64,000 bases of DNA from Clostridia bacterium (GTDB taxonomy: Bacteria; Bacillota; Clostridia; Oscillospirales; Acutalibacteraceae), in NCBI GenBank assembly GCA_017625095.1, contig JAGALQ010000007.1, positions 1-64,000 on the forward strand, given 5' to 3'. A model generated the notes under the pieces. The model was given only the letters and a program-made list of their open reading frames with translations. It had not been told where the DNA came from and ran no database searches. The position numbers and the translations under genes were made by a program. Below are positions 1 to 56,744 of this stretch, piece after piece; within the stretch, counting starts at the first letter, position 1; every line of letters begins with the position of its first letter.

Positions 1-78
1 AGACAGAAGATCCACATCGAATATGATGGCATCGGCTTTATCCCTTTGGAAGAACTTGCGAAAAAGGAAACGGCGTGA
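1..78 (+). CDS. C-terminal tail of a large serine recombinase (partial)
   Basis: Only the last 25 codons are in the window, open from base 1 to a TGA at 76-78. The tail reads RQKIHIEYDGIGFIPLEEL and ends KKETA. This closely resembles the C-terminal DUF4368 end of TnpX/TndX-type large serine recombinases of clostridial mobilizable elements, where a phrase like QKIHIYY..GFIPL is common. In those elements the recombinase usually lies at one end, next to the attachment site, so the window probably begins at the edge of an integrated element. The assignment rests on a short remembered motif and cannot show whether the full gene is intact. Confidence 0.55.
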   Translation, partial: RQKIHIEYDGIGFIPLEELAKKETA

Positions 79-53080: not shown

Positions 53081-54148
53081 ATGGCAAAGCTTAAAATGGC
53101 GGTTATCGGTACAGGCGGTATCAGTAACGAGCATATCAGGGGTTATATAAACAATCCCGACACTGAGCTTTATGCTTTTTGTGATATCAATCCCGATCAG
53201 CTTAAAATGATGGCTGAAAAGTACGGTGTGCCTGCCGAGCGTACATTCACCGACAAGGATGAAATGCTTAAGGCACTGCCCGAAATTGACGCTGTCAGCG
53301 TCTGTACATGGAACAGTGCTCACGCAGAGTGTACTATTGCCGCTCTCAATGCGGGCAAGCACGTTATCTGCGAAAAGCCGATGGCAATGAATGCAGACGA
53401 AGCAAAGCAGATGCTCGAGGCTGCAAAGCGTAATAACAAACTTCTTATGATCGGTTTTGTACGCCGTCACGGTAACGACTGTGAGGTTGTACGCGAGAAT
53501 GTAGATGCCGGCACTTTCGGCGACCTTTACTACGCAAAGGCTACATATCTTCGACGTAACGGTAATCCCGGCGGTTGGTTTGGCGACAAGTCACGTTCAG
53601 GCGGCGGTCCTCTTATCGACCTTGGTGTTCATGTTATTGACCTTGTGCGCTTTATCTTCGGTAATCCCAAGCCTGTTTCGGTTTACGGCGTTACATTCCA
53701 GAAACTTTTTAACCGTCCGAATGTTATAGGCGGTAAGGCATGGCAGTCCTGCTCTGCAGGTGTTCAGGATAAGTGCGATGTCGAAGACCTTGCAAGTGCA
53801 ATCATCCGTTTTGACAACGGTGCAGTGCTCAGTGTTGAGGCAGCGTTCAGCCTTAACATCAAGCACGATGAGGGCAATATTGAGCTTTTCGGTACAAAAG
53901 CAGGTGCAAAGCTTGATCCGAATGTTGAAATCTTTACGGAGCTTAATAACCGTATGGTAAATATCAGCTTCGCACAGGAAACAGCTCTCAGCTTCAACGG
54001 TCTTTTTCAGAAGGAAATTGACAACTATGTTGATTCAATTCTCGGCAGAGCAGAGTGTCTTGCACCTGCCGAAGACGGTGTTGAGATGATGAAGATACTT
54101 GATGCTGTTTACGAGTCAGCAAGAACAGGTCACGAGGTTATTCTGTAA
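53081..54148 (+). CDS. Gfo/Idh/MocA-family oxidoreductase
   Basis: 355 aa. Start at 53081 after AAAGGGAG; an ATG at 53057 would add eight residues but lies upstream of the ribosome site. NAD(P) site AVIGTGGISNEHIRGYINN, the family motif VICEKPMAMNADEAKQML (Glu-Lys-Pro), then GGGPLIDLGVHVIDLVRFIFG (catalytic His). Oxidises a sugar or cyclitol; the substrate is not predictable. It lies ahead of nagB but has its own promoter. Confidence 0.92.
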   Translation: MAKLKMAVIGTGGISNEHIRGYINNPDTELYAFCDINPDQLKMMAEKYGVPAERTFTDKDEMLKALPEIDAVSVCTWNSAHAECTIAALNAGKHVICEKPMAMNADEAKQMLEAAKRNNKLLMIGFVRRHGNDCEVVRENVDAGTFGDLYYAKATYLRRNGNPGGWFGDKSRSGGGPLIDLGVHVIDLVRFIFGNPKPVSVYGVTFQKLFNRPNVIGGKAWQSCSAGVQDKCDVEDLASAIIRFDNGAVLSVEAAFSLNIKHDEGNIELFGTKAGAKLDPNVEIFTELNNRMVNISFAQETALSFNGLFQKEIDNYVDSILGRAECLAPAEDGVEMMKILDAVYESARTGHEVIL

Positions 54149-54183
54149 CGGCAGATATTATTAACTATATTCTGCACAAAGTG

Positions 54184-54211
54184 TTGAAAATCAGCTCAGA
54201 GAATATATAAT
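54184..54211 (+). promoter_or_regulatory. Promoter of nagB
   Basis: TTGAAA (54184-54189), 16 bp, TATAAT (54206-54211). Confidence 0.55.
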
Positions 54212-54267
54212 AAAAAAGTTTTAATACGGAAATAAAGTATAAACCAAGGAAAGAAAGGTAAATAAAG

Positions 54268-54996
54268 ATGAAAGTTATCGTACTTGAAAATGCAGCACAG
54301 ATAGGTGAGGAGCTCGGCAAATTCTATGTTGATTTTATCAACGAGAATCCCTCTTGCGTACTCGGTCTTGCAACGGGTGCAACACCCGTGCCCACCTATA
54401 ATTACATAACAAAGGCTTATGCTGACGGCCAGGTAAGCTTCAAGGATGTAAGCACATTCAACCTTGACGAGTATTGTGACCTTCCCAAGGACAACAAAAA
54501 CAGCTATTACACATTTATGTTCCAGAATCTTTTCAGCCACGTTGATATAGACCCTGCAAACGTAGGCTTCCTCGACGGTAACGTAACAGATTACGATGCA
54601 GAGAGCAAGCGCTATGCAGAGGCTATTAAGGCAAAGGGCGGCATTGATGTTCAGCTTCTCGGTATCGGTCACAACGGACACATCGCATTCAACGAGCCTG
54701 CTGATGAGTTTACCGATGAGGCTTTCCGTGTAACTCTTTCCGAGAGCACAATCAACGCGAACTCAATCTATTTTGACGATGCTCCGATGCCGAGATATGC
54801 TATGACAATGGGTATCGGCTCAATTATGCGCTCAAAGAAGATTGTCCTTGTTGCAACAGGTGCAGGCAAGGCTCAGGCAATCAAGGGTATGATTGAGGGC
54901 GAGGTTACACCTCAGCTTCCCGCATCAATTCTCCAGAATCATGACGATGTTGTTGTATACCTTGATAAGGATGCTGCGTCACTTCTTACGAAGTGA
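54268..54996 (+). CDS. nagB: Glucosamine-6-phosphate deaminase
   Basis: 242 aa. LGLATGATPVPTYNYI (substrate loop), STFNLDEYCDLPKDNKNSYY (catalytic Asp), LLGIGHNGHIAFNEPADEF (catalytic His-Glu) and ALLATGAGKA-like VLVATGAGKAQAIKGMIEG. Converts glucosamine-6-P to fructose-6-P and ammonia. Together with a GH29 fucosidase and a GH89-like protein it points to use of host-type glycans, though nagA and nagE are not in the window. Confidence 0.95.
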   Translation: MKVIVLENAAQIGEELGKFYVDFINENPSCVLGLATGATPVPTYNYITKAYADGQVSFKDVSTFNLDEYCDLPKDNKNSYYTFMFQNLFSHVDIDPANVGFLDGNVTDYDAESKRYAEAIKAKGGIDVQLLGIGHNGHIAFNEPADEFTDEAFRVTLSESTINANSIYFDDAPMPRYAMTMGIGSIMRSKKIVLVATGAGKAQAIKGMIEGEVTPQLPASILQNHDDVVVYLDKDAASLLTK

Positions 54997-54997
54997 G

Positions 54998-55184
54998 TTT
55001 TATTCGCCTGCGGCGAGTTATATTGCTTAAAGCAGTTATATTATGATACGCATAGTTATATTTGGCGATGCCAAGTTGTTTTGGCGAATAAAATATAACT
55101 GAAAACAATGTTTTCAATATAACTATTGCTTTAAGCAATAATATAACTCTGACTTTAGTCGGAATATAACTAAAAACTTTAGTT
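54998..55184. repeat. Array of 9-bp motifs separated by different small palindromes
   Basis: AGTTATATT occurs at 55016, 55034 and 55054 with a degenerate copy at 55074; its reverse complement AATATAACT occurs at 55092, 55116, 55140 and 55163 (spacing 24, 24, 23 bp). Every gap is a palindrome with its own sequence: TCGCC..GGCGA, GCTT.AAGC, ATG..CAT, TGGC..GCCA, GAAAAC..GTTTTC, ATTGCTT.AAGCAAT, GACT..AGTC, AACT..AGTT. The first half is enclosed by an 11-bp perfect inverted repeat, TTTTATTCGCC (54998-55008) and GGCGAATAAAA (55083-55093). It lies between nagB and a frameshifted four-helix-bundle gene. No known element is recalled with certainty. Confidence 0.75.
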
Positions 55185-55221
55185 CTTATTTAATAGTATT
55201 AAGTTAAATAAGGTGATTGTT

Positions 55222-55582
55222 ATGTCAGACAGTGTTTTAAGAAATGAATCTAAAAAAGTTTGCAAAGGAAGTTGTTTTTCTTTGCAGAGATATGAAGGCT
55301 GACCGCAAGGAAACTGTTTTAATCAATCAGTTGCTTAGGTCAGCCACTTCTATAGGTGCCAATATACACGAGGCACAGTATGCTCAAAGCACAAAGGATT
55401 TTGTTTCGAAATTCGAAATATCTCTAAAAGAGTGTTTTGAAACAGAATATTGGTTGGAGCTTCTTTTTGAGACAGATTGTTTTTCCGAAGAAAAGTACAA
55501 GAAACTGCATAACGATTGCGGAGCAATACGCAGAATGCTTATATCTTCACTAAAAACAATAAAAGAGAAACATAAAATTTAA
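55222..55582 (+). pseudogene. Four-helix-bundle (S23/IVS-type) protein gene with a frameshift
   Basis: The frame from ATG 55222 (good site AAGGTGAT upstream) reads MSDSVLRNESKK and then runs out of register; the frame from ATG 55244 reads on as KKFAKEVVFLCRD ... LLRSATSIGANIHEAQYAQS ... LKECFETEYWLELLFETD, typical of four-helix-bundle proteins related to 23S intervening sequences. Removing one A from the A6 run (55252-55257) joins both into one protein of 119 residues. From the second ATG a 112-aa product lacking the N-terminus could be made, but with no ribosome site. The family is often found within rRNA insertions or beside retroelement modules. The lesion may be real, a sequencing error, or a slippage site. 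Confidence 0.7.
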
Positions 55583-55604
55583 ATGTGTTTAAGGGGAAAT
55601 CAAA

Positions 55605-56744
55605 GTGAAAAAAATCATTTCCGTACTTTTCAGTGTAAGTCTGCTTGTTTCGTGCTTTGTTTTCGGAGCGAGTGCCGAAGATGATGCACTCCGTTTCGGG
55701 GCTGACGGCAAGTTTACAGTGCTTCAGATTACCGACACGCAGGACGATGCATATATCGCTCACGGTCTTAAAGAGTTTATCGAAAAAGCAATTGAAGAAA
55801 CTAATCCTGATTTCATTGTTATAACCGGTGATATTGTTGAGGATTCGCGTGCAGGTGACATTTCGGATGATAAGATCTTTCAGGAGGGTGTAAGCGTTGA
55901 CGGCGACTATGCCGCGACACTTACCAACACAAAAAAAGCCTGTGAAGATATATTTGCGCCTGTTGAAGCATCGGGTATTCCCTATGCGGTTTCTCAGGGC
56001 AATAACGACTATAAAAGCGGTGTTACCAACGAAGACTGGCTCAGGATTTACTCGTCATACTCCAATAATATGACGGTTGATATGTCGGATGATGCAGAAG
56101 GTAAAATTGACTGTTATATTCCTGTGCTTTCATCCGATTCCGATGAGCCTGCATTCGGCTTGTGGATACTTGATAACGGCAGAGGTTTCAGCGATGGTCA
56201 GCTTGAATGGTTCAAAGGCTATGAAACACAAAGTGTGCCTTCCGTTGTGTTTGAACACATTCCCGTTGATGATATGGGCAACCTCTATGAAGAATGCAGC
56301 ATTTTTGATGAGGGCGCACTTATTGACGGCACTGAAACATACCGACTTAAAGGTGATATTGCGGGCGGTCACGCTGAGGGTGTAATCAGACCCGGCACAT
56401 CAACGGCAGAGTTTGCTGCGTGGAAACAGCAAAATGTTGTCGGCGCGTTTTTCGGTCATTGGCACACAAGCGGTTTTACGGGTGTGTGGGACGGCATAAC
56501 ACTCGGCTTAACCTACGGCTGTCAGTTTTCAAAGGCAGGCCCTTACGGCGTGCGTACGGTTATTCTTGATGAGGCGAGCGGCACAATCGAAACGGAGCAG
56601 TATGAGTATATTGACGGCGAATTTGTTCTGCAGATTGACGAGCCTTATGCTCAGTATGACAATGCTTTTGAAGAGACTGTTGCTAAGGCAATCAATTTCT
56701 TTAAAAATCTTTTTAACGCACTTACATATCTTCTGAAATTCTGA
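55605..56744 (+). CDS. Exported calcineurin-like metallophosphoesterase
   Basis: 379 aa, GTG start after AAGGGGAA. Signal peptide about 1-24 (IISVLFSVSLLVSCFVFGASA). Metallophosphoesterase motifs: LQITDTQDD (DxQ for DxH), VITGDIVED (GD), VSQGNNDYK (GNND for GNHD) and GAFFGHWHTSGF (GHxH). The last 30 residues (TVAKAINFFKNLFNALTYLL) form a Phe-rich amphipathic tail like that of other exported proteins here. Acts outside the cell on phosphate esters; substrate unknown. Ends in a strong terminator. Confidence 0.88.
   Translation: MKKIISVLFSVSLLVSCFVFGASAEDDALRFGADGKFTVLQITDTQDDAYIAHGLKEFIEKAIEETNPDFIVITGDIVEDSRAGDISDDKIFQEGVSVDGDYAATLTNTKKACEDIFAPVEASGIPYAVSQGNNDYKSGVTNEDWLRIYSSYSNNMTVDMSDDAEGKIDCYIPVLSSDSDEPAFGLWILDNGRGFSDGQLEWFKGYETQSVPSVVFEHIPVDDMGNLYEECSIFDEGALIDGTETYRLKGDIAGGHAEGVIRPGTSTAEFAAWKQQNVVGAFFGHWHTSGFTGVWDGITLGLTYGCQFSKAGPYGVRTVILDEASGTIETEQYEYIDGEFVLQIDEPYAQYDNAFEETVAKAINFFKNLFNALTYLLKF

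Follow-up and report, generated by a model that had tools for sequence, protein, structure and literature searches.

How did a row of nine-base motifs, with a palindrome of different sequence in each gap, come to lie between nagB (54268-54996) and a calcineurin-type phosphoesterase gene (55605-56744) in a Clostridia bacterium, together with a short PF05635 open reading frame? The row was picked out by a sequence-only reading of the window (the whole stretch of 64,000 nucleotides analysed) and has been followed up here in other genomes, the data being MAG assemblies. The answer favoured, to which a probability of about 0.65 is given, is that the array and the four-helix-bundle gene are one mobile element that has no transposase of its own. 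The array would be the cis part, probably protein-bound, the gene-less arrays would be non-autonomous copies, and insertion would take place just after hairpins, often those of tRNA terminators.

A mirrored array of hairpins

The array spans 176 bp (about 175) and consists of seven different hairpins set between 9-base linkers. The linker consensus is AGTKNTATT in the left half (half A) and, in mirror orientation, AATANMACT in the right half (half B). The plan of the element is H0-L1-H1 (CGCC..GGCG)-L2-H2 (GC..GC)-L3-H3-L4-H4-centre-L5'-H5-L6'-H6-L7'-H7-L8' (Table 1). The sequence-only reading had described 9-bp motifs with a different palindrome per gap, and this is confirmed, the layout being more regular than it had noted. 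Its spacings (18-20 bp, then 24, 24 and 23 bp) are reproduced on window coordinates, with start-to-start distances of 20, 18 and 20 for the forward linkers and 24, 24 and 23 for the inverse ones. The 11-bp inverted repeat said to enclose the left half (54998-55008 and 55083-55093) is an exact match, and this half is bounded by TTTTATTCGCC and GGCGAATAAAA. Four forward motifs of a single type had been claimed; the array of four stands, but only three of them are identical and the first differs. GC content is 28% in 55000-55249.

Table 1. Parts of the array, its gene and the inserted segment, in window positions
Feature	Position	Strand	Sequence or remark
H0 hairpin	54979-54996	+	TCACTTC-TTAC-GAAGTGA, terminator-like, GTTTTATT behind; nagB 3' end, directly before array
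L1 linker	54996-55004	+	AGTTTTATT; leftmost part of half A; variable base X, paired with centre Y
H1 hairpin	55005-55015	+	CGCC-TGC-GGCG
L2 linker	55016-55024	+	AGTTATATT
H2 hairpin	55025-55033	+	GCTTAAAGC
L3 linker	55034-55042	+	AGTTATATT
H3 hairpin	55043-55053	+	ATGATACGCAT
L4 linker	55054-55062	+	AGTTATATT
H4 hairpin	55063-55073	+	TGGC-GAT-GCCA
Centre	55074-55091	+	AGTTGTTTTGGCGAATAA; degenerate forward linker AGTTGTTTT from 55074, and complement of L1 and of the H1 5' arm
L5' inverse linker	55092-55100	-	AATATAACT; start of half B
H5 hairpin	55101-55115	+	GAAAACAATGTTTTC
L6' inverse linker	55116-55124	-	AATATAACT
H6 hairpin	55125-55139	+	ATTGCTTTAAGCAAT
L7' inverse linker	55140-55148	-	AATATAACT
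H7 hairpin	55149-55162	+	CTGACTTTAGTCGG; one G.T pair
L8' inverse linker	55163-55171	-	AATATAACT; right end of array
Array-gene spacer	55172-55221	+	
First codons of four-helix-bundle gene	55222-55251	+	MSDSVLRNES; frame differs from rest
Four-helix-bundle gene	55244-55582	+	PF05635 / TIGR02436
Approximate extent of insertion	55003-55590	+	array and gene; absent from same site in seven same-genus genomes

Is such an arrangement expected by chance? When the 64-kb window was resampled 100 times with a first-order Markov model, linkers never clustered in groups of two or more. The two-linker pattern has 30 matches in the whole host genome, where a backward control pattern has none. The array region folds with an energy z of -6.5 as RNA and -7.7 as DNA; none of 200 shuffles was as stable in either case. 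Across relatives, and counting mirror elements only, hairpins make up 189 of the 199 unique gap sequences (letter-shuffled mean, 31). In the 23 complete elements, i.e. those passing a strict pattern, 372 of the 390 stem positions checked can pair (G.U allowed). Pairing of H3 to H7 exceeds that of all 500 whole-arm shuffles; that of H1 and H2, which hardly vary and are hence uninformative, does not. Similar arrays exist in relatives and their palindromes change with compensation, the two points on which the sequence-only reading had staked its case.

The centre shows a further, long-range pairing. In 49 of 57 unique AGT-type cases (duplicates removed, 16 elements unparsed) the variable base X of L1 pairs with base Y in the centre, against a mean of 26.5 and a maximum of 39 when Y was permuted 5000 times. 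In 52 gene-linked arrays, described below, the mean length of the longest match of the 5' end with the centre is 8.7 bases (5.1 with shuffled centres), and 34 of them reach at least 8 bases. Since H1 and the long-range L1-centre helix are mutually exclusive, the left end of the array could alternate between two forms. A rod-like model, with the linkers of the left half paired to those of the right, was dropped: nested left-right pairs (37 of 92, 40%) hardly exceed non-nested pairs of the same element (103 of 276, 37%), the value between elements being 28%.

Presence, absence and position of the arrays

The arrays are dispersed. The host genome (2.46 Mb) has eight by pattern and six by BLAST, and one same-genus genome has 72 pattern matches. 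Within the genus, ten of 11 genomes match, two of which (G018 and G156) have a single match with as many or more control matches. At least one two-linker match is present in 63 genomes of a family sample of 150 (host included), and ten or more are found in 16, none of which exceeds four control matches. At least 118 stretches were obtained by scanning GTDB genomes. Of those listed, 104 belong to Bacillota (Clostridia among them), with many ruminant-gut MAGs, and 14 to unrelated groups such as Sulfurimonas, Streptococcus and Gilliamella, which look like chance matches.

Comparison of orthologous sites, made between species, shows the presence and absence by which a transposon or MITE is recognised. 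Array and gene are missing between nagB and the phosphoesterase gene in seven of the ten other genomes of the genus. The flanks are 38 (G148) and 43 (G153) bases apart, versus about 590 in the window, and in G151, G150, G154, G155 and G018 the two genes lie close together with no array-gene unit; of the remaining genomes, G152 and G156 match nagB alone and G157 neither flank. The window array with its gene is an insertion. The gene-less array at G000:C17:125598-125723 is likewise missing, with adjacent flanks, from seven of ten genus genomes, the three others matching one flank. The unit of array and gene was also found at two further loci in G155 and at one in G160, which belongs to a different family. 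The gene-bearing copy at G000:C47 was set aside as a clean empty site: relatives keep the tRNA-Thr gene, and G018 is without the element, but the downstream gene is not syntenic.

How were the ends joined? A terminator hairpin is visible by eye at the nagB site of G148 and G153 and is absent from the window, where the insertion replaced about 40 bp, native terminator included. No target-site duplication could be recognised by eye at the nagB or the C17 site. The deletion and the lack of a recognised duplication make the joining seem unlike that of a clean transposon. At the nagB site of G148 (L277, G148:C8 near 31270) the sequence reads GAGTTTTAACTC, possibly an L1/L8' scar left by loss of an element, or possibly the original target. 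As a separate observation, a REP-like palindrome, GGGGCGGCCATTGGCCGTCC, adjoins the gene-less array just left of 125598 (L006), and a relative (L433) has a palindrome of similar kind at the corresponding position.

The position of the arrays is not random with respect to hairpins. A hairpin of at least ten pairs (H0) ends 0-2 nt before L1 in 65 of the 82 elements that have enough left flank, as compared with 5 of 410 shuffled sequences and 11 of 410 random positions. For 29 of the 52 arrays linked to a gene, a same-strand tRNA gene ends no more than 160 bp to the left; the same holds, at 150 bp, for ten of 93 AGT-type arrays, where chance would give about 0.6 (from 24 tRNAs in 544,719 bases); among the 93 there is no tRNA on the opposite strand and none at the right end. 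In the window and C17 copies, H0 is the end of the upstream gene. Several copies away from tRNA genes have similar H0 sequences, which suggests that such copies may carry H0 along.

The four-helix-bundle gene and the linkers

The gene beside the window array matches PF05635 and TIGR02436 (E 1.8e-26 and 5.2e-30; 92.9 bits for PF05635, above the Pfam gathering score of 33.8), and the closest solved relative of the protein is 2rld (E 4.4e-27). To our knowledge, no catalytic activity is known for PF05635 proteins, and no function for S23/IVS proteins. The first codons of the window gene are out of frame with the rest, whereas relatives have copies that are open from the start; from its reading frames, the window copy seems to be damaged at the N terminus and may be dead. 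A family member, Xcc0516, is reported to be a homopentamer (PMC4990558).

Does this gene belong with the array, as the sequence-only reading proposed? Among 97 unique elements (out of 147; four of the 97 are without orientation), a gene lies within 600 bp in eight, none is near in 72, and 17 have no room for one. In all eight the gene is downstream and on the same strand, at 77-84 bp in seven and at a measured 46 bp in the window. Genome G130 has arrays with no PF05635 match. An exact AGTTATATT or AATATAACT is lacking within 1.5 kb of the remaining PF05635 loci in the host, but the view that the bundle link is therefore false was overturned by the empty sites and by a reading of upstream regions that presupposes no linker. 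In the latter, a mirror repeat was defined as a 6-mer present at least twice and followed by its reverse complement at least twice. It was sought at 87 PF05635 matches in 28 genomes that are array-rich or their kin and had been picked by the AGT linker, not by other linkers; the positions of 29 of the 87 were set from a known 1500-base flank. Mirror repeats are upstream of 52 (0.2 expected from shuffles), and 35 have none by this test. With 7-mers the figures are 51 of 87 upstream, three matches with less than 230 nt upstream being scored as misses, four of 87 downstream and 13 of 870 shuffled. A less specific test for direct repeats gave 56 of 87 upstream, 12 of 87 downstream, ten of 115 control open reading frames and 1.3 for shuffles; in 39 of the 56 upstream cases the reverse complement is also present.

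These 52 gene-linked arrays are hairpin arrays for the most part. A stem of at least four pairs is found in 113 of their 198 gaps (15 when shuffled), and 32 arrays have two or more such gaps. Eleven have none, and some of these (e.g. TATTCA, AGAATA) look like plain short repeats. The linkers differ from element to element, e.g. GCGATAT, GTGAAAT, GTGAAGT, AATGATG, TGATGATAT and GTTATGA, and they follow the protein tree. Linker and protein distances are correlated (Mantel r 0.65, 0 of 2000 permutations, 50 of the 52 arrays), and the correlation persists among pairs below 60% identity (r 0.21, 0 of 2000). There are exceptions: GTGAAGT also accompanies the distant protein of G148:C6, and one clade has both AGTKNTATT and GTTATGA. 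Gene and array thus do belong together. The further proposal, that the array is a substrate of the bundle protein, is strengthened by gene order and linker-protein covariation, from which we would predict binding.

Outside this set the picture is different. Only one of 30 PF05635 loci fetched from across the phylum has an upstream mirror repeat, and in 14 of these 30 the gene is flanked on either side by short inverted repeats (e.g. CTAGTAACTAGTAACTAG; L398-L427). Flanking repeats of this kind occur at ten of the 35 family matches without an array and at two of the 52 with one; the null has none. Among the titles and abstract openings listed in literature searches, none connects PF05635 genes with such arrays, or Gut-1 RNA with PF05635.

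DNA, RNA and relations to known systems

Might the array function as RNA? A structured non-coding RNA, comprising Gut-1 and sister types and bound by the bundle protein, could have spread by recombination or a retro-mechanism and have a regulatory or retroelement-like role. This alternative we regard as unlikely, though some observations favour it. The hairpins change yet stay paired, as do X and Y, and the related four-helix bundle Avd works with a reverse transcriptase in diversity-generating retroelements (PMC10053308, which gives it as homologous to PF05635). Among the four window proteins scanned there is no reverse transcriptase.

Gut-1 itself is a further point in favour. Gut-1 RNA (RF01706) consists of hairpins spaced by a constant 7-nt linker (GUGAAAU), and its model aligns at full length (1-77) with host AGT-type arrays, which also keep a constant 7-nt linker. 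The window copy scores 25 bits and five other host arrays 33-49 bits, below the gathering cut-off of 50. The cut-off is passed at ten of 20 PF05635 loci given, or nine places, as L227 and L367 overlap. Most of these have GAAAT-type linkers, with scores of 50-72 bits; L341 and L294, whose linkers are similar, fall below the cut-off. One of the nine places also holds an AGT-type array that passes, in G157 (52.5 bits). We conclude that Gut-1 RNA is one half (half A) of an array of the present type. What differs is its context: here the half belongs to an element that is mirrored and dispersed, that often neighbours PF05635 genes and in which other linkers take the place of GUGAAAU. No function, as far as we know, has been assigned to Gut-1 since 2010. 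Weinberg 2010 (PMC2864571) lists it as found only in the human gut and as probably a stand-alone non-coding RNA.

What speaks against a transcript is the polarity of the hairpins. Read in the AATANMACT direction, in which the halves lie on opposite strands, 36 of 84 triloops are GNA and one is TNC, and 50 of 82 tetraloops are GNNA and one is TNNC. Mismatches in the same sense are G.T in 14 cases versus A.C in four. On the coding strand the polarity flips between halves, half A having one G.T and five A.C and half B nine and three (Fisher p 0.043), these curated counts being small and the pooled sets possibly sharing a few hairpins; a larger uncurated set is weaker (G.T 10, A.C 5). The third base is a purine in 28 of the 50 GNNA loops, unlike GNRA loops of RNA, where a purine is expected at this position; C-GNA-G and GNNA are exceptionally stable loop types in DNA. 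Gut-1 matches fall on both strands, i.e. in both halves, at L335 and L355. A promoter-like site (TTGnnn-16..18-TATAnT) lies between array and gene in 17 of the 52 gene-linked arrays (0.8 in shuffles), so the array is upstream of the promoter there; in the window spacer, no sigma-70-type promoter was found on the + strand. The earlier expectation that the RNA would be a row of hairpins is not supported in that form, as loops and mismatches are polarised with the linker. RNA from one strand is disfavoured on this polarity, the mismatch counts being small, and DNA, or two opposite RNAs, fits better than one transcript. With the same small counts in mind, we lean towards recognition at the DNA level.

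Are the arrays, rather, REP- or BIME-like palindromes that owe their mobility to RAYT or another Y1 transposase, the bundle gene being a passenger? They resemble REP/BIME-RAYT systems in being palindromes scattered through intergenic DNA, in genomes where Y1 genes are frequent: a Y1 match is present in 14 of the 16 array-rich family genomes versus 57 of the 134 others (Fisher p 0.0009), and RAYT-like genes are present in the host. Y1 transposases act on single-stranded hairpins in IS200/IS605 (PMC6006769). The enrichment suggests that a Y1 enzyme may be a partner of the arrays. As the whole answer, mobilisation by RAYT is improbable: no array was found beside any of 20 chosen Y1 genes (the nearest, in G010, is 3.4 kb away), G004 and G117 have 35 and 18 pattern matches and no Y1 match, and the Y1 matches are of several kinds. 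The window element contains no transposase. REPs have a fixed stem and foot, whereas here stems are free, linkers fixed and halves mirrored, and the gene with a fixed place next to the array is the bundle gene. In CRISPR terms the spacers are hairpins and the linkers reverse at the centre, and the sequence-only reading is supported in setting the array apart from CRISPR, REP and tandem repeats. The RAYT-like Y1 proteins (L200-L218) show short variable stretches, VGDDAHIVP, VGEGSPLPQL and GAATSRP, which look like palindromic repeats inserted in frame. That the array is an operator or terminator, serving as a fixed regulatory region for the bundle gene or as a 3'-end element for upstream genes, is very improbable, for all that the 77-84 bp spacing in seven of eight, the position behind terminator-like hairpins and the presence of three terminator-like sites within or ahead of the window array would suit it, in view of the 72 of 97 elements with no gene near, the relatives lacking the element at both sites and the replacement of the native nagB terminator.

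A mobile element made of array and bundle gene is thus the preferred reading. How would it work? The cis-acting part would be the array of about 175 bp with its mirrored 9-bp linkers, in which hairpin sequence is free while pairing is kept. Linker recognition would most likely fall to the bundle protein, a member of the 23S rRNA-IVS/S23 family; the same or similar linkers accompany related proteins, and other linkers distant ones. Gene-less arrays would be mobilised in trans, and new copies would land in intergenic sites immediately 3' of a hairpin, often a tRNA gene terminator. Cutting and joining might be supplied by replication or repair, or by a partner in trans, possibly a Y1 transposase.

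The intervening sequences of 23S rRNA also encode a PF05635/S23 protein, as the element does (with an N-terminal frame break in the window copy). They differ in that the present elements are intergenic and behind hairpins, the array flanks the gene on a single side, numerous copies lack the gene, and the linkers vary with the protein; no rRNA match was found in 54000-56500 or in L001-L006. PMC4990558 calls the Coxiella intervening sequence a selfish element with an S23p-family gene and complementary ends, and leaves its origin, its spread and the past or present mobility of such sequences unresolved. A broader generalisation is tentative and somewhat doubtful: there may be a class of minimal, transposase-less mobile elements whose only protein, an S23-type four-helix-bundle oligomer, reads clade-specific linkers between hairpins of single-stranded DNA and drives insertion behind terminator hairpins. 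Gut-1 would then be one arm of such an element, rRNA intervening sequences would be related elements trapped within rRNA genes, and the short inverted repeats at S23 genes elsewhere in the phylum would be the ancestral form. Through the arrays, Gut-1 and S23 proteins acquire a common setting. It offers a code that can be tested, linking each protein clade with a 7-9-nt linker, as well as sites that are empty in nature and numerous copies without a gene. Movement directed by the protein alone would make this a mobile element working on an unknown principle, and help from a Y1 enzyme would make it a new two-part arrangement.

Two loci have unusual copies. At L305 (G167:C32) the same array sequence and gene end are found both before and after a PF05635 gene, i.e. 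a tandem repeat of the unit. At L288 (G148:C18:15900-16551) two opposed half arrays enclose a PF05635 gene that has an internal stop, which makes a composite copy.
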